IMG/VR virus record: IMGVR_UViG_3300012359_000033
Location: 1-39,608 of that record
Length of the DNA stretch: 39,608 nt
Reading direction: 5' to 3' (one strand)
Source: a virus
The notes below the pieces were generated by a model. The model did no database searches. It saw nothing but the letters and a program-made list of their open reading frames with translations, and was not told where the DNA came from. Positions within the stretch are counted from its first letter, which is position 1. Every line of letters starts with the position of its first letter. Shown in pieces: positions 5,106 through 39,335 of this stretch. The position numbers and the translations under genes are program-made.

Positions 5106-6944
5106 TCACACGTTGCCCACGTCGTATATGGCCAGCTTGCGAGGCTGCGTTCCAGTTAGGGGGGTAAAGATGCCGCTGCCGGCTATGCGCTGGCTGAACA
5201 TGGCGAAGGTGTGCGTGCCGCTGGAGCCAGCGACGAAGGTGTCGAATAACTGGATGGTGGTCTGTCCGGGGCCGCCCGTGGTCTGGCACTCCCAGACGCT
5301 CAGAGCAACGAGCGCGGAGGCGGTAGTCGGGGTGCTGGAGGACCCCGAGTCGCGGATCTTGACCTGGACCAGGTCGTTGGCCACCGTCGAGCCGCCGAGC
5401 AAACCGGTGACCTCCACCCGGTAGCGGCGCCCGGACACCAGGGTGGCCTGCAGGGTGCCCAGGACGCTGTCCATGATCTCGGTGCTGCTGGAGGTCGGCG
5501 TACCGCTGGAGACGGTGCTGGTCGGCGCGACCACGATGCCTCGACCCAAGCTGACCCCCGCGGCCTGGACATCGGTGGTGCCGTTGATGGTCGTGCCGGC
5601 GACGAACGCGGTGTCTGTCGTGAGCGTTCCCACCCCAGACCGATACAGGTTGGTGTCTCGCGTGGCGGATCCGGTGCCCCACGCAAGTTTGCCCGTGGCG
5701 TCTAGGGTGAGCCGGTGGACCGAGTCTCCGGTGACCTCGGCCTCGAAGGCTATGGTGGTTGTGTCCGCCGCGATGGCCCGATATATCTGCCCGCCCGTGA
5801 CCGAGCTCTGGGCCTGCACGGTGATGGTGGCGCCACTGGTCACCACATGAGCGCCGGTGAAGGTCTTGGAGCCCGCGATCGTGGCCTGAGTTGTCGTCAG
5901 GTCCACGAAGTTTTGAGTGGTGGATCCAGTGCCGCCGTTGGCGATGGCCACCGTGCCGGTGACGTTCGCGGCGGTGCCGGTGGTGTTCTGGTTCAACGTC
6001 GGAACGTCGGCGACCTGGATCACGCCCCACGCGGGAGCCGCAGATATAGTGCCGTTACCGGTCTGGGTCAGGAACTGCTTGGTCGCCGACGTGGACCCGG
6101 CCAATCGAACATTGTTGCTGGCGCCTCGATACTCCACGTCGCCCAGAGTGGTGTTGGGCGACAGCGCGTCGTAGGCGGCCGCCTTGGCGGTCTGGCCGGT
6201 GCCGCCCTGGGCGATGGCCAGCGCGGTGCCCAGCGTCAGCGATCCACCGATCGTCATGCTGGTGTCGGTGGTCAACACTCCCACACCGGAGCGGTAGAAG
6301 TTGGCGTCGCCGGCGGTGCTTCCCCCCGGGCCCCACAGCAGCTTGCCGTTGGCGTCTGAGGTAAACCGGCCGACAGTGTCGCCGGTGACATCCAGCCTCA
6401 GGGTGGCGGTCGTGCCGGTGGCCTGCCGGGTGTGGATGGGAGTCGACGGAGCGTTCAGCCCCACACCGAGGCGGTTGTTCACCTCGTCGTAGGCTGACGT
6501 GCCCAGCAGGATCTTGCCCTTGGTGGCGTTCGACGTGCTGTTCAGCGTCAGAGTGCCGCCAGACGAGCTCGAGCCGTAGACCTGGGGCGTGGTCGCAGAC
6601 ACCGACAGAATCGTCGCTCCGCTGAAGGTCTTGATGCCCGCGGCGGTCTGGTTGGTGGCCAGGTCCATGAAGTTGCCGGCAAGACCGGTCAGCGGCAGCT
6701 CCCCGATCGGCACCAGGCCGCCCGAGTCCAACTGGGCCACTCCGTTGACCGCGCCCCGGGTGGCCAGGTCTAGAGCTCCGACGTCAGCGGCGTTTAGGGT
6801 GATGCTGGCGCCCGTGTGGCCGTTGACCGTGGTGGGTAGACCCTGAGGACCCTGTAGACCCAGCGAAGACACCGTGACCTGTGTGGACGGACCGTTGTCG
6901 ACGACGGTGACGACCCGCTGCTGGTCCAGGACAACGACGCTCAC
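5106..6944 (-). CDS. tail fibre / receptor-binding minor tail protein
   Basis: This 612-aa protein is a probable trimeric tail fibre contacting the host surface. After an N-terminal attachment region (VVVLDQQRVVTVVDNGPS) there is a short collagen-like GLQGPQGLP. It then has degenerate repeats of the tail-fibre type: IAQGGTGQ and IANGGTGS, two YRSGVGTLTTDTA/YRSGVGVLTTDTS motifs, and two KTFSGA/KTFTGA motifs. The last 140 residues look like a compact beta (jelly-roll) domain (RRYRVEVTGLLGGSTVANDL, SGTHTFAMFSQRIAGSGIF). The start is a GTG at 6944 overlapping the upstream stop (GTGA). It is transcribed before the terminase, which is not the usual siphovirus order. Confidence 0.8.
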   Translation of the reverse strand: MSVVVLDQQRVVTVVDNGPSTQVTVSSLGLQGPQGLPTTVNGHTGASITLNAADVGALDLATRGAVNGVAQLDSGGLVPIGELPLTGLAGNFMDLATNQTAAGIKTFSGATILSVSATTPQVYGSSSSGGTLTLNSTSNATKGKILLGTSAYDEVNNRLGVGLNAPSTPIHTRQATGTTATLRLDVTGDTVGRFTSDANGKLLWGPGGSTAGDANFYRSGVGVLTTDTSMTIGGSLTLGTALAIAQGGTGQTAKAAAYDALSPNTTLGDVEYRGASNNVRLAGSTSATKQFLTQTGNGTISAAPAWGVIQVADVPTLNQNTTGTAANVTGTVAIANGGTGSTTQNFVDLTTTQATIAGSKTFTGAHVVTSGATITVQAQSSVTGGQIYRAIAADTTTIAFEAEVTGDSVHRLTLDATGKLAWGTGSATRDTNLYRSGVGTLTTDTAFVAGTTINGTTDVQAAGVSLGRGIVVAPTSTVSSGTPTSSSTEIMDSVLGTLQATLVSGRRYRVEVTGLLGGSTVANDLVQVKIRDSGSSSTPTTASALVALSVWECQTTGGPGQTTIQLFDTFVAGSSGTHTFAMFSQRIAGSGIFTPLTGTQPRKLAIYDVGNV

Positions 6945-8777: not shown

Positions 8778-9082
8778 GTCGCCGGCCGCCCCAGATCGAG
8801 AGTGTTCGACAGTTCGACCATGGCGTCCAGCTGGGCCTGTGTCACCACGCCCAGATCGACAAGGAGCCGCCGGAGCGCCAGGTCGGGAGCGGGAGCCACC
8901 ATGATGTTGACCCGGTTGAGTGGCGAGGTCTCGGTCGACCCAGACTGAGGGGAGTCGGTGAGTGTGGATCGAACAAGCTGGCCGGTCAGAGTGTGGGAGT
9001 GCTTAATCTCACCCGCGGCCTCCTTCACAAAGTGCTCGGTCCGAGGCACCCCGCACGTCTTGCACCGCTGGTCGTCCATCAT
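8774..9082 (-). CDS. hypothetical protein with N-terminal CxxC
   Basis: I do not recognise this 102-aa protein. It opens MMDDQRCKTCGVPRTEHFVK, with a Cys-x2-Cys and nearby His that could bind zinc. It has a polar Ser/Thr linker and a C-terminal helical part (LALRRLLVDLGVVTQAQLDAM) that may dimerise. The start overlaps the upstream stop (ATGATG across TGA), with GGAGGG a few bases upstream. It belongs to the tightly overlapping chain of small genes before the JAB protease. Confidence 0.55.
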   Translation of the reverse strand: MMDDQRCKTCGVPRTEHFVKEAAGEIKHSHTLTGQLVRSTLTDSPQSGSTETSPLNRVNIMVAPAPDLALRRLLVDLGVVTQAQLDAMVELSNTLDLGRPAT

Positions 9083-10618: not shown

Positions 10619-10828
10619 TCACCTCCGCGGAGCGGTCTGGATCAGGCCGAGAGTTGCGGCGAGGATCGGGGGAGCGACGGCCACGCACAGGATCCTGAAG
10701 GCGAGGTGGCCGAGGAGGACCCTCAGGGCCGCGACGCGGCGGTCGTGCCTCTGCAGCCTCTGGAGGCTCCGCATGTCCTGGGCGAAGGAGCTCGAAGTGT
10801 GGCGGATGGGGGTGTCGGTGGTCATCAT
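10619..10828 (-). CDS. small membrane protein, leaderless start
   Basis: This 69-aa protein has a polar, basic N-terminal half (helix around SFAQDMRSLQRLQRHDRRVA) and a hydrophobic C-terminal helix (LAFRILCVAVAPPILAATLG) followed by TAPRR, so it is probably a tail-anchored membrane protein. The start chosen is the tandem ATGATG at 10828, exactly 7 nt after a -10 box; the mRNA would begin at or next to the start codon. A TTG at 10864 opens a longer frame, but it overlaps the -35 box. It heads the leftward virion module. The function is unknown. Confidence 0.5.
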   Translation of the reverse strand: MMTTDTPIRHTSSSFAQDMRSLQRLQRHDRRVAALRVLLGHLAFRILCVAVAPPILAATLGLIQTAPRR

Positions 10829-10835
10829 GCCCCCT

Positions 10836-10864
10836 ATCATTGCGCCCGCGAGGGCGGTTGTCAA
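10836..10864 (-). promoter_or_regulatory. leftward promoter of the virion module (TTGACA-17-AATGAT)
   Basis: A perfect -35 TTGACA (10864-10859), a 17-bp spacer and -10 AATGAT (10841-10836) point left. The -10 is followed by AGGGGGC and then ATG at 10828, so initiation would give a leaderless message. It is the only clear promoter seen ahead of the structural genes. Confidence 0.65.
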
Positions 10865-11387: not shown

Positions 11388-12014
11388 CTACTTGCAGGTC
11401 AGACGCTGGGCGGGCGTGCGGCCCTCGGCCGAGAAGGGCAGGCCGTCGGAGCCGATGCCGGCGACCGCGATGTACATGCTCCACACCCCCGGGTAGCAGA
11501 GCGAGGTCACGACGTGGACCGAGGGCAGATTGGCGCCGCGGGGGATCTTGAGCGAGATGTAGGGCGGGAACTCGTCGATCCAGCCGCCGGTGGTGGAGTC
11601 CTTCTTCTGCAGGCGGATGGTGATGGTGTGGGTGCGTGGTGCGGTGGCGCACATGATGATGACGCCCCCGTCGACGTGGATACCGTCGGTGACCTTGATG
11701 CCCCCAGTGTCCGGCGGGCTCAGGTACAGGTGGCAGAGGCCGAGAACGAAGTACGGGTCGATCTTGAAGGGGTTTGCGGCATCGGCCGAGGGGATGGGCT
11801 GGTTGGGGATGGCGTTGAGATTGGTTGAGGAGGGCTGGGGTCCACACGAGGTGTCGAAGATGGAGCAGTACGTGGAGGCTGTGGCGGGGGAGTTGGGATG
11901 GGAGGAGGCGGGGGGCGGGTTCTGGGAGGACGGGTCGTTGCAGGACGCCGCCGCGAGGGCGATGGACGTGGCGATGATCAAGGGCGCGATACACGCGCGG
12001 GCGATGAGCTTCAT
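11388..12014 (-). CDS. secreted protein or lipoprotein with signal peptide
   Basis: This 208-aa protein begins MKLIARACIAPLIIATSIAL and then AAASCNDPSSQ. A basic n-region, a hydrophobic core and a Cys after small residues suggest export, possibly as a lipoprotein; the -3 residue is Ala rather than Leu, so the lipobox is imperfect. A Pro/Ser-rich linker follows, then a beta-rich domain with two more Cys (YCSIFDTSC), the segment GLCHLYLSPPDTGG, and a C-terminus ending RLTCK. The start ATG lies exactly 6 nt after a TATACT box with no ribosome site, so it is probably leaderless. Surface exposure in the infected cell fits a superinfection-exclusion role, but that is speculative. Confidence 0.6.
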   Translation of the reverse strand: MKLIARACIAPLIIATSIALAAASCNDPSSQNPPPASSHPNSPATASTYCSIFDTSCGPQPSSTNLNAIPNQPIPSADAANPFKIDPYFVLGLCHLYLSPPDTGGIKVTDGIHVDGGVIIMCATAPRTHTITIRLQKKDSTTGGWIDEFPPYISLKIPRGANLPSVHVVTSLCYPGVWSMYIAVAGIGSDGLPFSAEGRTPAQRLTCK

Positions 12015-12020
12015 GGGTCG

Positions 12021-12029
12021 AGTATATCA
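12021..12029 (-). promoter_or_regulatory. extended -10 promoter (TGATATACT) of the lipoprotein gene
   Basis: TGATATACT is an extended -10 (TG-n-TATACT). It is followed by CGACCC and then the ATG at 12014, a 6-nt gap. The -35 region is poor (TTATTC at about 16 bp), which is acceptable with an extended -10. Confidence 0.5.
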
Positions 12030-12522
12030 GGTCCGTGATCCAGAATAATTAATGATATAAAGGCTGGGTGAAAGAGCGCTCAGCCGGCACTATATATCAT
12101 ATATGGCTCTCATGAGATCTCTCAAGCCGGCACGAACTACCGTCCGAAAGATGGATATTCGTTATAACCCCGCCATTCCACCCGGGCGGGTTCATATCGG
12201 ACATATGGGGATACATGCCGCACATCTGCCGACAACCGACATGACCGACATCTCATCCACATCCGATGATATATCCATACATACGGACAAACACGGATCA
12301 ATCATCTCATCAAGGATATCATGCAATGATCATGATGAAGATGATATACATACATGAATAATCAATGATGATGCGCGATGAGGGCGCCGATATCAATACA
12401 TGGATATATGAATGATGATTAATCAATATCCTGATGCAGTCATCTATACACCCTTATATGGAGCGGCGTATATAACCCCCTTACAATGCCCCCTCATAAA
12501 ACATCTCCACACACATGATCTT
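12030..12522. other. AT-rich non-coding stretch
   Basis: About 490 bp without a credible gene. It is far richer in A/T than its surroundings and full of ATAT, ATACAT and GATGAT strings, with two direct copies of AGCCGGCAC (12082-12090 and 12125-12133). Rightward it stays open for 84 codons from 12103, but the composition (His, Ile, Asp, Ser) is what AT-rich simple sequence gives. Leftward, AAGGGGGTTATATA near 12470 resembles the G-run/-10 arrangement of nearby promoters, but no gene follows it. It could be a regulatory or replication region. Confidence 0.5.
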
Positions 12523-12540
12523 GCCCCCGCGATCAGGGGC
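12523..12540 (-). terminator. hairpin after the 70-aa gene
   Basis: GCCCC and GGGGC pair around an 8-nt loop, 22 bp past the stop of the leftward gene at 12562. No U-run follows; the downstream bases AAGATCATGTGTGTGGA resemble those after the hairpin at 14422. Confidence 0.45.
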
Positions 12541-12561
12541 ATGATCAGATCGGCAGGATGA

Positions 12562-12774
12562 TCAGTCGACGGGATTCAAGATCATGTTTGTCATGATCAG
12601 TCGCAGTTCAGGAATGATCATGTCATCGTCAAGATCGGTGTCGAATTCGGTGTCAGTGTGATCGGCATATGCGATGAGCAGATCGGCGAGTTCGATCGCG
12701 TCGCGCGTCGCGTGAAGATCGGCGATGTCATAGCGCGAGAGGATCGTGTATGCGAAGGTGTCGAGCGTGATCAT
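12562..12774 (-). CDS. small acidic protein
   Basis: This 70-aa protein (start MITLDTFAYTILSRYDIADL) is unrecognised. It is predicted to be helical, with a centre rich in Asp and Thr (ADHTDTEFDTDLDDDMI) and a hydrophobic Met/Ile-rich end. AAGGGG lies 6 nt before the ATG, so it uses a normal ribosome site. It has its own promoter (12805-12833) and hairpin terminator, so it is a single-gene unit. Small acidic phage proteins often act on host enzymes or mimic DNA, but nothing here proves that. Confidence 0.6.
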   Translation of the reverse strand: MITLDTFAYTILSRYDIADLHATRDAIELADLLIAYADHTDTEFDTDLDDDMIIPELRLIMTNMILNPVD

Positions 12775-12804
12775 GATTTCCCCTTCATTTGATCGATTAA
12801 TTAG

Positions 12805-12833
12805 ATTTTATCATCGCGCCCCCTCGCGCGCAA
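12805..12833 (-). promoter_or_regulatory. leftward promoter (TTGCGC-17-TAAAAT)
   Basis: -35 TTGCGC (12833-12828), a 17-bp spacer that includes GCGAGGGGGCGCG, and -10 TAAAAT (12810-12805). The start would fall near 12798, giving a leader of about 25 nt. The spacer is part of a terminator-like inverted repeat (12813-12851). Confidence 0.6.
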
Positions 12834-12851
12834 GGTTTGAGGGGGCGCGAT
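12813..12851 (-). terminator. 13-bp inverted repeat, terminator overlapping a promoter
   Basis: A 13-bp perfect inverted repeat (12813-12825 with 12839-12851, core CGCGCCCCCTC/GAGGGGGCGCG) with a 13-nt loop begins 11 bp after the stop of the 101-aa gene. On the leftward strand it is followed by AAAATCTAATTAAT. It overlaps the -35 and spacer of the next promoter, so termination and re-initiation share the same DNA. Confidence 0.65.
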
Positions 12852-12862
12852 TTGAAGATGTT

Positions 12863-13168
12863 TTATTCGTGATCGTCGCAGCAAGTTGAGCAGTTGTCGG
12901 GGTGATCGTTGCAGTTTTCGATCATGTCGGTCGCGTGCGAAAGATCATGCGTCATGTCGTCGTGATCGTCATCGTATCCGCTCAAGGCGTTGATGATCAA
13001 GATCATCGTGATGCGCGGGTCGTTGATCGCGTCGTAGGCGTGATGATCTTGTTCATCGATCGCGTCGAATGCGTAACCGATCAAGTCGGCGTCGTCGATG
13101 TTCAGCGCGTGAGCGGCGGCGATGATCGCGTTCGTGCGAATCGGATGTTCGATTTCGTATTCGTTCAT
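12863..13168 (-). CDS. Asp/His-rich small protein with C-terminal Cys cluster, leaderless
   Basis: This 101-aa protein begins MNEYEIEHPIRTNAIIAAAH and is unusually rich in Asp and His. It ends with the metal-binding-like cluster NCNDHPDNCSTCCDDHE (Cys x4, His x2). A zinc or other metal ligand set is visible, but I recognise no family. The ATG at 13168 is exactly 6 nt after a TATGAT -10 box and has no ribosome site, so I choose it over an in-frame start 9 codons upstream that would lie within the promoter. It is a single-gene unit. Confidence 0.6.
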   Translation of the reverse strand: MNEYEIEHPIRTNAIIAAAHALNIDDADLIGYAFDAIDEQDHHAYDAINDPRITMILIINALSGYDDDHDDMTHDLSHATDMIENCNDHPDNCSTCCDDHE

Positions 13169-13174
13169 GATGCA

Positions 13175-13203
13175 ATCATACCCCCTCGCGAGCATGATCG
13201 CAA
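13175..13203 (-). promoter_or_regulatory. leftward leaderless promoter (TTGCGA-17-TATGAT)
   Basis: -35 TTGCGA (13203-13198), a 17-bp spacer ending CGAGGGGG, and -10 TATGAT (13180-13175). TGCATC and then the ATG at 13168 follow. The layout matches the promoters at 14108 and 14958. Confidence 0.65.
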
Positions 13204-13322
13204 GGATGCGTTATCAATTCGTTATCCCCCTCATTCGCCCCCTGCGACAAGATCATCCCCCCTTCAATGCTAGCATTCAGGGATAAAACATCTTGCCCAA
13301 AAACCCCCTTGCGCGCTGTCAC
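13176..13322 (-). CDS. possible 48-aa gene (low confidence)
   Basis: A GTG at 13322 lies 4 nt after a perfect extended -10 (TGATATAAT) and opens a 48-codon frame. Its TGA falls inside the -10 box of the next promoter. The predicted product (starts VTARKGVFGQDVLSLNASIE) has no recognisable motif. The spacing is shorter than the 6 nt seen for the other leaderless genes, and G-runs dominate the codons, so this may be non-coding. Confidence 0.25.
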   Translation of the reverse strand: MTARKGVFGQDVLSLNASIEGGMILSQGANEGDNELITHPCDHAREGV

Positions 13323-13326
13323 GGTC

Positions 13327-13335
13327 ATTATATCA
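13327..13335 (-). promoter_or_regulatory. extended -10 element (TGATATAAT)
   Basis: A consensus extended -10 on the leftward strand. The -35 region is poor. It would start a transcript near 13320 running toward the 101-aa gene. Confidence 0.4.
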
Positions 13336-13360
13336 ATGATTTAATATTCACCCCTGAACC

Positions 13361-13389
13361 TTGACGACCCTCTCTGATCATGGTATCAT
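13361..13389 (+). promoter_or_regulatory. rightward promoter (TTGACG-17-TATCAT)
   Basis: -35 TTGACG (13361-13366), a 17-bp spacer and -10 TATCAT (13384-13389). It is the only convincing rightward promoter in the 10.8-20 kb region and faces no clear gene. Confidence 0.55.
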
Positions 13390-13395
13390 AAATTG

Positions 13396-13585
13396 ATCGG
13401 AAAAATCATCGATCGCGATGTCGATCAAGGAGAAAACGGACATTTAACACATGTCGCCCTTTAACGGACATAAGATGATAGGGGCGACATTTCACGATCG
13501 ATCCCCACACCAAACCTCAGCCAAAACAACAAGTGATTTCCAGTTCTTTTATGGACATGCGAATACCCCGCGCGCAGCGGGGCAT
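13396..13585 (+). ncRNA. candidate small RNA
   Basis: The rightward promoter at 13361 would give a transcript of about 190 nt ending at the GC hairpin at 13566-13582. Inside is a 9-bp inverted repeat (ATGTCGCCC at 13451-13459, GGGCGACAT at 13482-13490). Two copies of a GTCCGTT-type element lie in it on the opposite strand. No open frame has a well-placed ribosome site; an ATG at 13451 is 20 nt past AAGGAG and its frame runs antisense into the next gene. Confidence 0.4.
13566..13582. terminator. GC hairpin between opposing transcripts
   Basis: CCCCGC and GCGGGG form a 6-bp stem with a 5-nt loop, 13 bp past the stop of the leftward gene at 13595. It can act in both directions. Confidence 0.55.
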
Positions 13586-13594
13586 TGCAGGGTC

Positions 13595-13945
13595 CTACTT
13601 ACGCGTCGTGCCGATCGGGCAGTCGACCATCGGCTCGCTGTGCGCCTTCTCGTAGGTGCAGTTGGTCTTCGCGGTGTCGCCGTTCGGGTTCAGTCCCTCG
13701 CAGACCTCAGGCGCGAAGTTGTCCTTCGAGGCGAGCGCCAGGCAGTCCCGGTAGTCCTGTGCGATCGTCGGCGTCGACCCCCCAGAGGTGCTCGCGGCGG
13801 GCGCCGTCGCGTTCCCTGAGACCGACCCAGTGATCCCCTGCACCGACCCGATGATGACCGCGAGCAGCAGCGGCACCGTCACGATGCCGATCACGGACCC
13901 CAGAGTGATCTTCAGCCAGCGCGGCATGCGGTTCTTGGTGCTCAT
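13595..13945 (-). CDS. single-pass membrane protein with external Cys-containing domain
   Basis: This 116-aa protein has a basic N-terminus (MSTKNRMPRWLKI), one strong transmembrane helix (VIGIVTVPLLLAVIIGSVQG), a Gly/Ser/Thr linker, and a C-terminal domain with four Cys (YRDCLAL, EVCEGL, KTNCTYEK, MVDCPIGT) that could form disulphides outside the membrane. GAGGAG 6 nt before the ATG at 13945 supports this start. The same frame is open to a leaderless ATG at 14101, adding 52 Pro/Arg/Thr-rich residues, so either a longer form or a leader exists. A role at the cell surface, such as blocking superinfection, is possible. Confidence 0.6.
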   Translation of the reverse strand: MSTKNRMPRWLKITLGSVIGIVTVPLLLAVIIGSVQGITGSVSGNATAPAASTSGGSTPTIAQDYRDCLALASKDNFAPEVCEGLNPNGDTAKTNCTYEKAHSEPMVDCPIGTTRK

Positions 13946-14107
13946 GGTGTTCTCCTCGGTGATCTTGGTGTTGTGTGTCGGAGTGTGTTCAGTGGAGCTC
14001 AGTCCCACACCCGGTGTGCGCGTGGGCAGAGGCAGGGGCCTCTCGGTGCGTGTGATCGCGGCGGGGCGTCGTACGGGGCGCGGAGGTGTCGTTTCGTTCA
14101 TGCCTTA

Positions 14108-14136
14108 ATACTACCCCCTAGCCTCGTCATTGTCAA
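14108..14136 (-). promoter_or_regulatory. leftward leaderless promoter (TTGACA-17-TAGTAT)
   Basis: -35 TTGACA (14136-14131), a 17-bp spacer ending CTAGGGGG, -10 TAGTAT (14113-14108), then TAAGGC and the ATG at 14101. The block TAAGGCATGAACGAAACG is identical to that at the 14958 promoter. Confidence 0.7.
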
Positions 14137-14466
14137 GGCGGTCATTCAGCGATTCTGAGTGCCCCAGGGAAGGGCGGAATGCTGGCATTCAGGCCCGCCC
14201 TGCGCGTCGATTCTAGCCCCCTCCCAGAGCCTCCTACCCATATGCCTGCTTTATCGATCAGCTTTTTGATGGACTCAAGATCGGCGAGCATGAACGGCGC
14301 CTATGTCAATATATGAATATTAATCTAAACGCAGAAATTGCATTGCATGCAATAATAACGGTGTTGATATCATTCATTAATCATCAATCTATTAAGATGA
14401 TGGCCTTTCCACACACGACTTGACCCCTCGGGGAGGGGTCGTGTCGCGGATATTCAGTTGTTGAGA
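14137..14466. other. non-coding gap with palindrome and hairpin
   Basis: About 330 bp with no gene. It holds a 12-bp palindrome ATTGCATGCAAT (14342-14353) extended to ATTGCATGCAATAATA, which recurs at 23290-23305. It also has an AT-rich stretch (14300-14400) and an 8-bp-stem hairpin (14422-14440) near the end of the helix-turn-helix gene. Confidence 0.55.
14422..14440 (-). terminator. hairpin after the helix-turn-helix gene
   Basis: GACCCCTC pairs with GAGGGGTC around a GGG loop, 26 bp past the stop at 14467. No U-run follows; the downstream AAGTCGTGTGTGGA resembles the sequence after the 12523 hairpin. Confidence 0.55.
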
Positions 14467-14886
14467 TCAGGCCTCGTCGGTGTCCTCGGCGTCGAGTTCG
14501 GCGAGCGCGTTGGTGATCACCGCGTCGTCGGCCCAGTTGTCGATCTCCTCGTCGGTCATGTTCTCGAAGTCGATCTCGTCCTCGTCGACCTCGTCAACCC
14601 CCTGAGATGCGGGGGTCGAGGTCAGGACGTTGAGCGCCTTCGCGGCCTTGTCCTCGTCCCGCGCGGCCTTGGCGGTCTTCGCGGCGGCGGTCCAGTCGGC
14701 GAAGTTCTTCTTCACCTTGCCGAGCTGCGTCGGGGTGAACTCCAGCGAGTAGCGGGCGCCCTTGCCGACGGGGTCGATGCCGGAGTCCTTCGAGCGGAGG
14801 AACTTCCGCAGCGTCCTGGCGTCGGTCTCGCACTCGGTGGCGAGCGTTGCGGCGGTGAACGCGGTCTTCACGGTCTTTGCGGCCAT
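14467..14886 (-). CDS. helix-turn-helix-like protein with acidic tail
   Basis: This 139-aa protein has an N-terminal domain of about 60 residues (ATLATECETDARTLRKFLRS, then PVGKGARYSLEFT) shared with the protein at 25144-25728. It resembles the small actinophage helix-turn-helix modules that bind DNA. A Lys/Ala-rich helical linker and a strongly acidic end (DEVDEDEIDFENMTDEEIDN) follow. GAAGGA 9 nt before the ATG at 14886 supports the start; upstream TTG and ATG codons in frame are alternatives. It is preceded by a 14-codon leaderless frame under a strong promoter. A DNA-binding regulator or nucleoid-associated role is inferred. Confidence 0.55.
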   Translation of the reverse strand: MAAKTVKTAFTAATLATECETDARTLRKFLRSKDSGIDPVGKGARYSLEFTPTQLGKVKKNFADWTAAAKTAKAARDEDKAAKALNVLTSTPASQGVDEVDEDEIDFENMTDEEIDNWADDAVITNALAELDAEDTDEA

Positions 14887-14906
14887 TGTGATCATTCCTT
14901 CAGTTG

Positions 14907-14951
14907 TCAAGCGCGTCGGGGGGCGATTCCCCCTCGTCGCGTTTCGTTCAT
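14907..14951 (-). CDS. 14-codon leaderless upstream ORF / leader peptide
   Basis: The ATG at 14951 sits exactly 6 nt after a TATATT -10 box and encodes MNETRRGGIAPRRA, ending TGA 20 nt before the next gene's ATG. Its first four codons (ATGAACGAAACG) match those at 14101. Arg-rich and followed closely by the real gene, it may be a leader that controls its translation, or simply a leaderless entry point. Confidence 0.4.
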   Translation of the reverse strand: MNETRRGGIAPRRA

Positions 14952-14957
14952 GCCTTA

Positions 14958-14986
14958 AATATACCCCCTCGCACCCCCCTTGTCAA
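14958..14986 (-). promoter_or_regulatory. leftward leaderless promoter (TTGACA-17-TATATT)
   Basis: -35 TTGACA (14986-14981), a 17-bp spacer ending CGAGGGGG, -10 TATATT (14963-14958), then TAAGGC and the ATG at 14951. It is one of the best consensus promoters in the window. Confidence 0.75.
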
Positions 14987-25143: not shown

Positions 25144-25728
25144 ATGGCCGACACGTTGAATACGGGGCAGATGGCCGAGGAGATTGGGACCGACTCTCGC
25201 ACCTTCAGGAAGTTCCTGAGGTCCGACGCCAGTCCCTACGAGCCGGTGGGTCAGGGGGCAAGGTACATCTTCGATCACGACGATGTCGCCGACATCCGGA
25301 CTCGATTCTCCGATTGGTCGGGAGGACGACGAGGGCCGCGAGCCACCTCGATCTCTCCCGCGACTCGTTCTACGCCCCGGTCGAAGCGCAGCAAGATCGT
25401 CGAGAAGATCGATCCGCTGGAGGCCGACGACCTCATGACCCGGCTCACCAGCAGCATCGCGGACAGGCAGCGCCGGCAGGGCATCATCTGCAACTTCCAG
25501 ACCTCACACCCCAGAGTCCGAGGGCTGGACGTGAAGTGCGGTCACCCCACGGTCGATAGTACGATGTTCTGCAAGAGGCACCAGCAGATCAAGTGGTGCG
25601 GCGACTGGGAGCCGGTGCACGAGCTCTGTGGCCCGGGCCACTACTGCGGCTACCACAACGGCGACATCAGCGACGAGGAGTTCGAAGCACTTCGGGTGGG
25701 TGCGGAGATCGACGAAGAGCTTCAATAA
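25144..25728 (+). CDS. helix-turn-helix-like protein with Cys/His zinc domain
   Basis: This 194-aa protein has the same N-terminal module as the gene at 14467: MAEEIGTDSRTFRKFLRSDA, then PVGQGARYIFDHDD, then DIRTRFSDWS. After a basic Ser/Arg/Thr linker comes a helix (ADDLMTRLTSSIADRQRRQG) and a Cys/His-rich end (ICNFQ, KCGHP, FCKRH, WCGDW, ELCGPGHYCGYH) that can bind one or two zinc ions. AGGAG lies 8 nt before the ATG. A DNA-binding regulator is likely, but the target is unknown. Confidence 0.55.
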   Translation: MADTLNTGQMAEEIGTDSRTFRKFLRSDASPYEPVGQGARYIFDHDDVADIRTRFSDWSGGRRGPRATSISPATRSTPRSKRSKIVEKIDPLEADDLMTRLTSSIADRQRRQGIICNFQTSHPRVRGLDVKCGHPTVDSTMFCKRHQQIKWCGDWEPVHELCGPGHYCGYHNGDISDEEFEALRVGAEIDEELQ

Positions 25729-25869: not shown

Positions 25870-25878
25870 TGATATCAT
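25870..25878 (+). promoter_or_regulatory. extended -10 leaderless promoter (TGATATCAT)
   Basis: TGATATCAT is an extended -10. It is followed by ACCTGC, then the ATG at 25885. The -35 region is poor. The 6-nt gap matches the other leaderless promoters. Confidence 0.5.
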
Positions 25879-25884
25879 ACCTGC

Positions 25885-26094
25885 ATGGCCATCACCAAGC
25901 GGGCACTCATGGAGATGCTTGAGTCGCTCAGGGAAGAAGATCTGATCGAGTTCGCATTGACTCATGATGCAGTGCAGGGTGACTTCATCCAACCCCTACA
26001 CCTGGACAGTCAGGCCACGGTGGACTTCGCTGTCGTGAGTGTCGGTGACCCCTATTATTGCCCCGAGCCTGAGGTAGGATGGGGAGGATATTAA
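25885..26094 (+). CDS. hypothetical acidic small protein, leaderless
   Basis: This 69-aa protein starts MAITKRALMEMLESLREEDL and is acidic, with an N-terminal helix and a beta-rich end (ATVDFAVVSVGDPYYCPEPE). It is unrecognised. The ATG is 6 nt past a -10 box with no ribosome site, so translation is probably from a leaderless message. It ends in GGGGAGG followed by ATG at 26095, a good ribosome site that opens a frame different from the coding frame further downstream. Confidence 0.55.
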   Translation: MAITKRALMEMLESLREEDLIEFALTHDAVQGDFIQPLHLDSQATVDFAVVSVGDPYYCPEPEVGWGGY

Positions 26095-33123: not shown

Positions 33124-33534
33124 TCACGTGGTCTCGGCGACCTTCCTATACTCGACCTTGAAGCCGACCGGCTGGGAGATCTGCATGACCGTGTCGTACA
33201 TGACCTCGGCGAATGCCTCGCACATGGTGCTGGCAAGCTGCAGGGTGAAAGATAGGTTGCCCCCCTCGTCAGAGAAGTGCCACCGATGGGCATAGGCGTC
33301 GGGCTCGAAGCCCCTGTCCTCCTCGGCGAAGCCGGTCAGGTTGTGCTTGTTGGAGAGTTCGCTCAGGAACTCATAGATCGAGGCGATGTTCTCGTCGGTC
33401 ATGCCGAAGAACTTATCCCACCTGACATCCAGGCGGTACAAGATCTCGACCTCGTCGAGGAACCAGTTGTCGGGCAGCCAGCTCTTGATCATCTCGGCGG
33501 GCGTGCCCTTGCCAAGGAATTGTTGGATCGTCAT
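33124..33534 (-). CDS. hypothetical protein
   Basis: This 136-aa protein is unrecognised. It starts MTIQQFLGKGTPAEMIKSWL and has aromatic, acidic segments (DNWFLDEVEILYRLDVRWDK, ENIASIYEFLSELSNKHNLT) and a C-terminal helix (ASTMCEAFAEVMYDTVMQIS). There is no metal or membrane motif. The ATG is one base after the dCMP deaminase TGA. It sits between the nucleotide genes and the polymerase, so a replication role is possible. Confidence 0.5.
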   Translation of the reverse strand: MTIQQFLGKGTPAEMIKSWLPDNWFLDEVEILYRLDVRWDKFFGMTDENIASIYEFLSELSNKHNLTGFAEEDRGFEPDAYAHRWHFSDEGGNLSFTLQLASTMCEAFAEVMYDTVMQISQPVGFKVEYRKVAETT

Positions 33535-33535
33535 G

Positions 33536-34030
33536 TCAGTATTTTACCACTTCCACGCCTGCGGATAAAAGCAGGTTGACCCCGGACATGTCGCGATGTG
33601 CGAAGTCGTAGACCACGCGGTATATGCCGGCGTTGATGATCAACATGGCACAGTTGGAGCACGGTGAGACCGTGGTGAAGAGCTGAGAGTCCTGCAACCC
33701 TACACCATGCTTAGCGGCGTAGGCGACCGCGTTGGCTTCGCCATGCACGGAGATCAGACAAGGTTGCACCATCTTGCAACTACCCAGATGCTGCCCCGGC
33801 CATACATCTTGATCGGGGAGTATGTATGCAGTCTTGCAGGTGCATTCATGGCTGCAATGGACCATCCCCGCCGGCGCACCATTGTAGCCGGTGATCAGAA
33901 TTCGTGCGTCGCGTTTGGCAACAACGACTCCCACCTGGGCCCGGCTACATGTGGATCGTGAGGCCCATAGCTTGGCGGACTCCATGAGAATGTGGTCACG
34001 CGATGGGCGGGAGTCGATCAAGTTGTTCAT
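33536..34030 (-). CDS. deoxycytidylate (dCMP) deaminase
   Basis: This 164-aa enzyme deaminates dCMP to dUMP. The zinc deaminase motifs are clear: HGEANAVAYAA (His96, Glu98) and SPCSNCAMLIINAG (Cys124, Cys127). Extra Cys/His residues (HCSHECTCKTAY) match the second structural site of T4-type dCMP deaminases. Length is normal for the family. The ATG at 34030 overlaps the stop of the ThyA-like gene upstream. The dUMP made here is the expected substrate for the ThyA-fold enzymes next door. Confidence 0.92.
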   Translation of the reverse strand: MNNLIDSRPSRDHILMESAKLWASRSTCSRAQVGVVVAKRDARILITGYNGAPAGMVHCSHECTCKTAYILPDQDVWPGQHLGSCKMVQPCLISVHGEANAVAYAAKHGVGLQDSQLFTTVSPCSNCAMLIINAGIYRVVYDFAHRDMSGVNLLLSAGVEVVKY

Positions 34031-37456: not shown

Positions 37457-38947
37457 TCAACCTTCCCGAAGCAGGGACTCGGGGGACGCCATAACCGCCT
37501 TCGCGACATCACCATCCTGCTGGAGAGTCTCGTAGACCACTTCGTCGATGGTGCCCCAGGCTAGTAGATACACGAAGCGGTTACCTTTAGCTGCGTGCAG
37601 AGCGATTCTGTCCTCAGCTTGAGTATAGTCCACGTAGCTGAGAGTCAGTGAGAACCAGATGAACGTGCCGGCGGTCGATAGATCGATGCCCAGCGAACCA
37701 GCCGCCGGCTGCATCACAAACACCGCACACCCGTCGGTGTGGGCCCTGAACGACTTGATGTTTTTATCTCGGTCCAGGCGACTGATCGCCCCATACAGCT
37801 CGAAGCATTTGATCTTGAGCTGGTCACAGACTGAGACGATAGCCTTGATGTCGCTCACGAACTGAGCGGCGATGACCACCTTCTCATCATTCTCCTGAAG
37901 ATCCACCAACAGATCTCGAAGAACATCCAGTTTCTCCTGGCCCACCCGGTGCAGTCGGCCGTTGGGATACTCGTCGGACGGCACCGTGCGGGCCACTCCG
38001 GAGGTGATCTGTCTCAATCTGATCAACTGGACTATCTTTAGGGAGGCTTCAGTGATCTCGCCAGTCTCTATGCGATGGATCATGTCTCGGGCCATGTCGT
38101 CGTAGGCAGGCCCAGAGTCTGTGAGTGGCACCCAGATTATTTCAGGGGGCAGTCTCTCCGGTAGATCGAAGCACTCCTCGCGGGTGATGGCGAAAGCGTC
38201 TTGATGAATTCTTCGATGCAATTCTCGAGTGTTGATGTTGCCCAGCCACTTGGAGTAGCCGTTCAACTGTATCCACCTACCGAAGTGGGCCTTAAACTCA
38301 CGGAAGCTCATGTCGTCGAATCGACTAGGGTTCAAGAACTGCCATTGAGACCAGATGTCGAACACCCGCTTCTTTTTGGTGACCACCGTACCGGTCATGA
38401 TCACCCGATAGTCCGCGGAGTCACCCAGCTTCCACACCAGCTTGGACTTCTTGGCTGTGGGGGACTTGATGCGATGACTTTCGTCGAGGCCGATGGCGTG
38501 AGGCTGCCAGGCGTCCAGAGCGGCGAACACGGTGAACCTACCCCCCCGGCTCTTAGACCGACGCTTGTAGCCCCCCTTGTCTCGATAGACTGAGCCGGGA
38601 GTGGACAGCGCGTCGTAGTTGATCACCACCACATCCAACAGGCCGTCGCCGAATCGGGGTAAAGGTGTGGTCTTGCGAGAGTCGCTGTCCCACACCAATA
38701 GACGATAGTTCACGGGGCAGTGGGCTTCAAACTCATCTCTCCACACGCCCATGACCGACACCGGGCAGAAGATCAGCACTCGGTCGACCCTGCCCAGCGT
38801 GTGGAGAATCGACACGTAGTCGATGAACGTCTTGGTCTTGCCGGTTCTTGGGGCCATCAGAAGCGCGCCGCCGAACCCGTTGTTCAACAACGTCTTGACC
38901 GCGGCGACTTGGTGCTTGTAGGGCTGGGTTTTGAATCTATACTTCAT
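37457..38947 (-). CDS. SNF2-type superfamily 2 helicase
   Basis: This 496-aa protein has SF2 motifs: a Q-like YKHQVAAV, Walker A MAPRTGKTK (31-39), RVLIFCPVSVMGVW (motif Ia), the DESH box in IGLDESHRIKSP (155-158), a GT motif (VIMTGTVVTKK), VVIAAQFVSDI, and motif VI YTQAEDRIALHAAKG. It probably remodels or unwinds replication and recombination intermediates using ATP. The length is typical of compact phage SNF2 helicases. Its start overlaps the stop of the gene upstream (ATGA). Confidence 0.85.
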   Translation of the reverse strand: MKYRFKTQPYKHQVAAVKTLLNNGFGGALLMAPRTGKTKTFIDYVSILHTLGRVDRVLIFCPVSVMGVWRDEFEAHCPVNYRLLVWDSDSRKTTPLPRFGDGLLDVVVINYDALSTPGSVYRDKGGYKRRSKSRGGRFTVFAALDAWQPHAIGLDESHRIKSPTAKKSKLVWKLGDSADYRVIMTGTVVTKKKRVFDIWSQWQFLNPSRFDDMSFREFKAHFGRWIQLNGYSKWLGNINTRELHRRIHQDAFAITREECFDLPERLPPEIIWVPLTDSGPAYDDMARDMIHRIETGEITEASLKIVQLIRLRQITSGVARTVPSDEYPNGRLHRVGQEKLDVLRDLLVDLQENDEKVVIAAQFVSDIKAIVSVCDQLKIKCFELYGAISRLDRDKNIKSFRAHTDGCAVFVMQPAAGSLGIDLSTAGTFIWFSLTLSYVDYTQAEDRIALHAAKGNRFVYLLAWGTIDEVVYETLQQDGDVAKAVMASPESLLREG

Positions 38948-39300
38948 ACTGCCCTCGGGTCGTCGGGATAGTACCCTTCGTCGTGGATCATGACCGCGTC
39001 GACCACTACTCGGGGTACGTTAGGATTGTATGTGATGTTGCGCTTGATGATGTTGCCCAGCCTGAGGATACCCCCGGTTGGCCTACCACATTCCCTATGG
39101 ACCCACCATCTATATTTAGTGCCTAGGCTGCTTAACTTTCCCCCGTGGCGATTGAACCGATCGTCCGGACATTTGCATCGAGTGCGGGGAACTTGAAAGA
39201 TCCCGACAATCCTGAGTGACTCCGGTGAGTCTAGCTTGTCCACAAGCTTGGCCACTCGGTCGTCGTCGAGATCGACCTCCAGCAGCAGATATTGAGTCAT
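38944..39300 (-). CDS. hypothetical protein, first gene of the leftward metabolism operon
   Basis: This 118-aa protein (start MTQYLLLEVDLDDDRVAKLV) is unrecognised. It has an acidic N-terminus, then RTRCKCPDDRFNRHGGKLSS and WWVHRECGRP, with three Cys and two His that could bind zinc. The ATG at 39300 is 5 nt after a TAGTAT -10 box with no ribosome site, so it is probably leaderless. It leads the long leftward set that contains the helicase and nucleotide enzymes. Confidence 0.55.
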   Translation of the reverse strand: MTQYLLLEVDLDDDRVAKLVDKLDSPESLRIVGIFQVPRTRCKCPDDRFNRHGGKLSSLGTKYRWWVHRECGRPTGGILRLGNIIKRNITYNPNVPRVVVDAVMIHDEGYYPDDPRAV

Positions 39301-39305
39301 GCTCA

Positions 39306-39335
39306 ATACTACCACATATCATGACCACGCAGCAA
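39306..39335 (-). promoter_or_regulatory. leftward promoter of the metabolism operon (TTGCTG-18-TAGTAT)
   Basis: -35 TTGCTG (39335-39330) and -10 TAGTAT (39311-39306) with an 18-bp spacer. The -10 is followed by TGAGC, then the ATG at 39300. It drives the genes to the left from the divergent gap with 39473. Confidence 0.55.

Follow-up and report, generated by a model that had tools for sequence, protein, structure and literature searches.

An exact 6-nt gap between -10 hexamer and ATG points to leaderless genes in an actinobacteriophage family, with an AGGGGG run as an apparently separate promoter feature

In phage lambda, the cI mRNA made from PRM is leaderless and begins at the AUG; just one promoter is involved, and it is regulated, with CI as its activator. 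Leaderless genes with a -10 hexamer a short, defined distance before the start codon are established in Actinobacteria (PMC3898074; PMC3160421, in which the lambda case is mentioned), and in M. tuberculosis about a quarter of the genes with mapped starts are leaderless (PMC3898074). The cluster K mycobacteriophage Adephagia is predicted to have a leaderless gene, along with a repeated family of SigA-like promoters termed ESAS (PMC11373665). The ESAS promoters have hexamers 17-18 bp apart, are located before small genes and carry a 15-17 bp imperfect inverted repeat; they pair with an SAS of 13 bp that lies at the start codon.

Here, we analyzed a stretch of 39,608 bases from an IMG/VR virus record (hereafter the window; GC 0.61), which encodes a portal, terminase, primase/helicase, DNA polymerase I, exonuclease and thymidylate synthase. 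Relatives were found via the DNA polymerase, which shares 65-68% identity with its counterparts in the IMG/VR phages G001 and G002 and ~50% identity with the polymerases of Microbacterium phage Huwbert and Curtobacterium phage Shrew. By sequence comparison, the window is assigned to an actinobacteriophage, of which it is a part, in a wider family with Huwbert and Shrew. Megablast of the window against named phages gave no useful match, no IMG/VR relatives of the 14467 and 12863 proteins were confirmed, and the integrase profile PF00589 had no match in five phages. A tRNA-Ala (anticodon cgc) was called by ARAGORN at window positions 5931-6012 (+), within a long ORF on the opposite strand, and is probably a false positive.

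Five ATGs of the window are located exactly 6 nt past a -10 hexamer, with coordinates and motifs as reported in the initial annotation: TATACT-N6-ATG at 12014, TATGAT-N6-ATG at 13168, TAGTAT-N6-ATG at 14101, TATATT-N6-ATG at 14951 and, on the (+) strand, TATCAT-N6-ATG at 25885. Equally accurate were two sites of near spacing (AATGAT-N7 at 10828 and TAGTAT-N5 at 39300) and the AGGGGG run (G-run) abutting the -10 hexamer at 13168, 14101 and 14951, where the -35 hexamers TTGCGA, TTGACA and TTGACA, respectively, lie at 17 bp. An eighth site at 33534 (TAAAAT-N6-ATG, 136 aa) and the perfect TTGACA at 17 bp for 10828 had been overlooked. No good -35 hexamer (3-4 mismatches) is present at 12014, 25885, 33534 and 39300. 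The predicted features at these sites, with those at 14101 and 14951 given further below, are:

10619-10864 (-): gene 10828, 69 aa, with TTGACA 10859-10864, AATGAT 10836-10841, AGGGGGC 10829-10835 and ATG 10828
11388-12026 (-): predicted leaderless gene 12014, 208 aa, with -10 TATACT 12021-12026 and without a clear -35
12863-13168 (-): predicted leaderless gene, 101 aa, start conserved in G002
13166-13203 (-): predicted leaderless promoter of gene 12863-13168, with -35 TTGCGA 13198-13203, AGGGGG 13181-13186, -10 TATGAT 13175-13180 and ATG 13166-13168
25873-26094 (+): predicted leaderless gene 25885, with -10 TATCAT; predicted leaderless starts also at the G001 and G008 orthologs
33124-33546 (-): predicted leaderless gene 33534, with -10 TAAAAT 33541-33546; TAAAAT-N7-ATG in the G001 ortholog
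38944-39311 (-): predicted leaderless gene 39300, with -10 TAGTAT 39306-39311 (5 nt)

Among the window ORFs that begin with ATG and have at least 60 aa, six have TANNNT at 6 nt and, on average, 1.9 have it at any other distance (Poisson P = 0.013), which by itself is a modest excess. Summed over seven phages, TANNNT at 6 nt reaches 63 versus 19.6 (P = 5×10−15), and when promoter-like sites (a TTGACA-like hexamer, a 17-18 bp spacer and TANNNT) were counted in the window and four relatives, an ATG at exactly 6 nt was found in 24 of the 92 sites of these five phages, with other distances averaging 1.8 (P = 3×10−19), although such spacing P-values are too small because orthologous sites are not independent. 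Ten decoy spacers together gave an ATG at 6 nt in 2 of 78 sites, with no peak, and the 6-nt peak across the family is not in doubt. Among 150 sites in ten phages, 42 are leaderless by this spacing, 32 of which head ORFs of at least 60 codons. The base before the A of the ATG is C or T in 97% of these 42, which fits a predicted transcription start on that A. The starts annotated by depositors fall on such sites at Huwbert genes 56 and 60 and Shrew genes 93 and 105. In IMG/VR, the pattern TTGACA-N17-TANNNT-nnAGGC-ATG occurs at least 120 times versus 17 times with a spacer of 14, and GC ranges from 0.24 to 0.72 among the matches listed; these counts and this GC range suggest that the geometry is common in phages at large.

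Two further observations concern the same spacing. At Huwbert gene 108 (L230, 44995 vs. 45031), an in-frame ATG located 36 nt upstream of the annotated start stands 6 nt past TTGACA-N17-TATACT, and the gene start is probably misannotated. G003 (L188-L190) and G004 (L191-L193) have their own repeated cassette, TACGTT-AGATGC-ATGACGAA, again with the ATG at 6 nt; sister copies of the form TACGTTAGwyACATCA.. are without the ATG, and an SD-led gene then follows.

The sites resemble the leaderless sigma-A promoters of Actinobacteria (PMC3898074; PMC3160421) in the location of TANNNT, about 7-12 nt before the start, and in the purine at +1, the C at -1 and the lack of an SD sequence. No conserved -35 was found in the M. 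tuberculosis study, and TGn before the -10 is rare there (PMC3898074), whereas a TTGACA-like -35 is frequent in the window family and AGGGGG precedes some of its -10 hexamers. As in the ESAS promoters, SigA-like hexamers 17-18 bp apart are repeated in the genome and located before small genes, but neither an ESAS-type inverted repeat nor an SAS was seen when the aligned sites of the window family were read by eye. With lambda cI, the window phage would share a phage mRNA starting at AUG; the lambda case, however, is one CI-activated promoter, whereas here many unrelated small genes are concerned.

In the orthologs of 25885, 39300, 33534, 10828 and 13168, the aligned ATG is still preceded, at 5-7 nt, by a -10-like hexamer. 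The G002 ortholog of the 12863-13168 protein (69% identity) is preceded by GATGAT-N6-ATG, and codon-position GC of the window gene holds from the first codons; its 101-aa product had no match in Pfam or PHROG. The G001 ortholog of the 10828 gene carries TATGATagggggcATGATG, and a predicted leaderless 238-aa gene at 8946, next in order in G001, is a candidate counterpart of 12014. Orthologs of 39300 have leaderless spacing in G001 (5 nt) and in G002 and G008 (6 nt), whereas those of G007, Huwbert and Shrew have an SD-led start; the initiation mode thus appears to change within the family. Taken with the exact peak in related phages, the pyrimidine at -1 and the agreement of annotated Huwbert and Shrew starts, the conserved orthologous starts support the earlier proposal of leaderless promoters. 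At 10828, the sequence AGGGGGC (window 10829-10835, (-)) sits between the -10 hexamer and ATGATG and is identical in G001; from its place downstream of the -10, this G-run might offer the second ATG a weak ribosome site.

Such conservation of starts was not found for 14101 and 14951, where the features are:

13595-13945 (-): likely true gene below the 14101 promoter, SD-led, GAGGAG-aacacc-ATG
14099-14136 (-): predicted G-run promoter, with TTGACA 14131-14136, AGGGGG 14114-14119, TAGTAT 14108-14113 and ATG 14099-14101
14467-14886 (-): predicted SD-led gene of an HTH-like protein (phrog_15118, HTH DNA binding protein), GAAGGA..ATG 14886
14912-14941 (-): predicted hairpin with a GGGGG/CCCCC stem, in the 5'UTR that leads from the 14951 promoter to the SD-led HTH-like gene
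14949-14986 (-): predicted G-run promoter, with TTGACA 14981-14986, AGGGGG 14964-14969, TATATT 14958-14963 and ATG 14949-14951

Below the 14101 promoter, the SD-led start at 13945 reads GAGGAGaacaccATG. Homology of the 14101 product with a G001 protein begins at residue 47, near the ATG at 13945, codon-position GC changes near the same point in the 14101 reading frame, and in G008 the ortholog retains the AGGGGG-TAGTAT promoter but lacks an ATG at 6 nt. At 14951, the reading frame that starts with the ATG spans just 14 codons. The 14951 promoter is conserved in G001, G002 and G008; G001 and G002 keep TATATT-taaggc-ATGAACGA, the frame after the ATG is not conserved (44 and 113 codons, respectively), and the G008 counterpart has ATC at +1 and no ATG. 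Given the SD-led starts downstream and the G008 promoters without an ATG, neither 14101 nor 14951 is probably a gene start. The initial annotation was right that the ATGs it named have no ribosome site, but it missed the SD-led starts downstream of 14951 and 14101. The GGGGG/CCCCC hairpin is kept by sequence in G001, G002 and G008 (L182, 12139-12187; L187, 4845-4893; L202, 755-840); three of the four were folded computationally, and only that of the window is clearly beyond shuffles. It is possibly an element of RNA control or an mRNA stabilizer.

The G-run was then considered apart from the ATG. GGGGG-TANNNT occurs 7 times in the window versus 0.7 expected and 12 times in G011 versus 0.15 expected, and IMG/VR has 18 copies of the full cassette versus none with the spacer shortened by 3. 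Within the family, the run is present at 13 of 42 leaderless sites versus 8 of 108 other sites, so G-run and leaderlessness are not fully independent there; shared ancestry may explain the excess. The run also stands before SD-led genes in G008 (57310 and 56487). G011, G013, G014 and G018 have no protein in common with the window at E 1e-6, and megablast of G011 and G013 against named phages gave no useful match. Because these four phages were retrieved by the G-run pattern, one copy in each is expected, but not the copy number in G011, in which 14 of 15 sites have the run and nearly all are followed by an SD-led gene 30-40 nt downstream; G-run promoters likewise precede SD-led genes in G014 and G018. 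On this sequence evidence, AGGGGG-TANNNT appears to be a genuine promoter feature that is separate from leaderlessness and is no proof of a special regulator.

A different arrangement was seen in the unrelated phage G013 (L218-L220; e.g., record positions 25607 and 26518), which has about a dozen TTGACACCCAC-N-GTGGG-TANNNT promoters. Their spacers form a CCCAC..GTGGG dyad, which suggests an operator in G013, and similar SD-led leaders follow throughout; these promoters look like a repressor-controlled family. A host counterpart of the cassette was also sought in genome contigs by a scan that demanded exact TTGACA, AGGGGG and ATG, and that looser host cassettes would escape. The 37 full-cassette matches were taken as chance because none was titled Actinobacteria and there was no sign of a shared cassette.

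The initial annotation had suggested that one dedicated regulator or sigma factor reads the G-run cassette, a proposal that these data do not support. A phage- or host-encoded regulator that binds the G-run as its operator and co-regulates the set would account for the enrichment in the window and G011 and for the 18 cassettes in IMG/VR, and the dyad in G013 spacers offers a parallel in an unrelated phage. However, no dyad of that type was seen in the window family, the abutting run is found at just 3 of the 8 window sites, and 4 of the 7 window copies of GGGGG-TANNNT are not promoter-like. In place of the fixed position across all or orthologous promoters that marks the regulon of a single regulator, the run is shifted between orthologs (13168 vs. 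G002 and 14951 vs. G008), and it precedes leaderless and SD-led genes alike, the latter in G008 and in the unrelated G011, G014 and G018. A dedicated regulator is thus considered unlikely. We give a low probability to the reading that AGGGGG abutting the -10 is a distinct element of several unrelated actinophage groups, one that serves leaderless and leadered genes and is recognized either by a phage regulator or by an accessory factor of the actinobacterial polymerase.

That a phage-encoded or alternative sigma factor reads the promoters is very unlikely. The sites do form a recognizable family, and about half of the group's TTGACA-type sites lie in other contexts, but TTGACA, 17-18 bp and TANNNT are the primary-sigma consensus, and Pfam Sigma70_r2 and Sigma70_r4 had no match in the window or four relatives, whose records may be incomplete, while the controls matched. 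A small novel regulator would be overlooked by such a domain search, and the window family encodes HTH-like proteins. Chance spacing in a genome rich in ATGs and TANNNT hexamers would suit the weak excess in the window alone and may hold for 14951 and 14101 as gene starts; against the sharp 6-nt peak in relatives, its absence with decoy spacers and the conserved starts of orthologs, we regard it as exceedingly improbable.

We consider it likely that these are ordinary sigma-A-type promoters that place +1 at the A of the ATG and give leaderless mRNAs, and that the G-run is a spacer variant. The host primary sigma factor (sigma-A/HrdB-type) would recognize TANNNT and, across a spacer of 17-18 bp, a TTGACA-like -35 that is weak at some sites. 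Transcription is predicted to start with the A of the start codon, 7 nt past the -10, and from this we infer a leaderless mRNA. The fixed 6-nt gap would then be the normal distance from -10 to +1, translation would initiate at the 5' AUG, and no ribosome-binding site would be needed since the genes begin where the mRNA is predicted to begin. AGGGGG would be a spacer variant at some of the promoters that serve small accessory genes of the leftward region, common to several of them perhaps by duplication. Its most likely role, independent of leaderlessness, is to adjust how polymerase binds or melts the DNA immediately upstream of the -10. The 14951 and 14101 promoters most likely give a leadered mRNA for an SD-led gene, with the +1 ATG being incidental or a short upstream ORF.

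Leaderless starts are a well-known habit of such hosts, and predicted leaderless promoters of exact spacing are common in the actinophage family of the window. Such promoters can be found by a simple pattern, so start-codon calls could be corrected. Relatives apparently differ in whether the same genes are leaderless or SD-led, which opens the switch between the two modes to study, and the G-run is a testable promoter feature common to unrelated phages.
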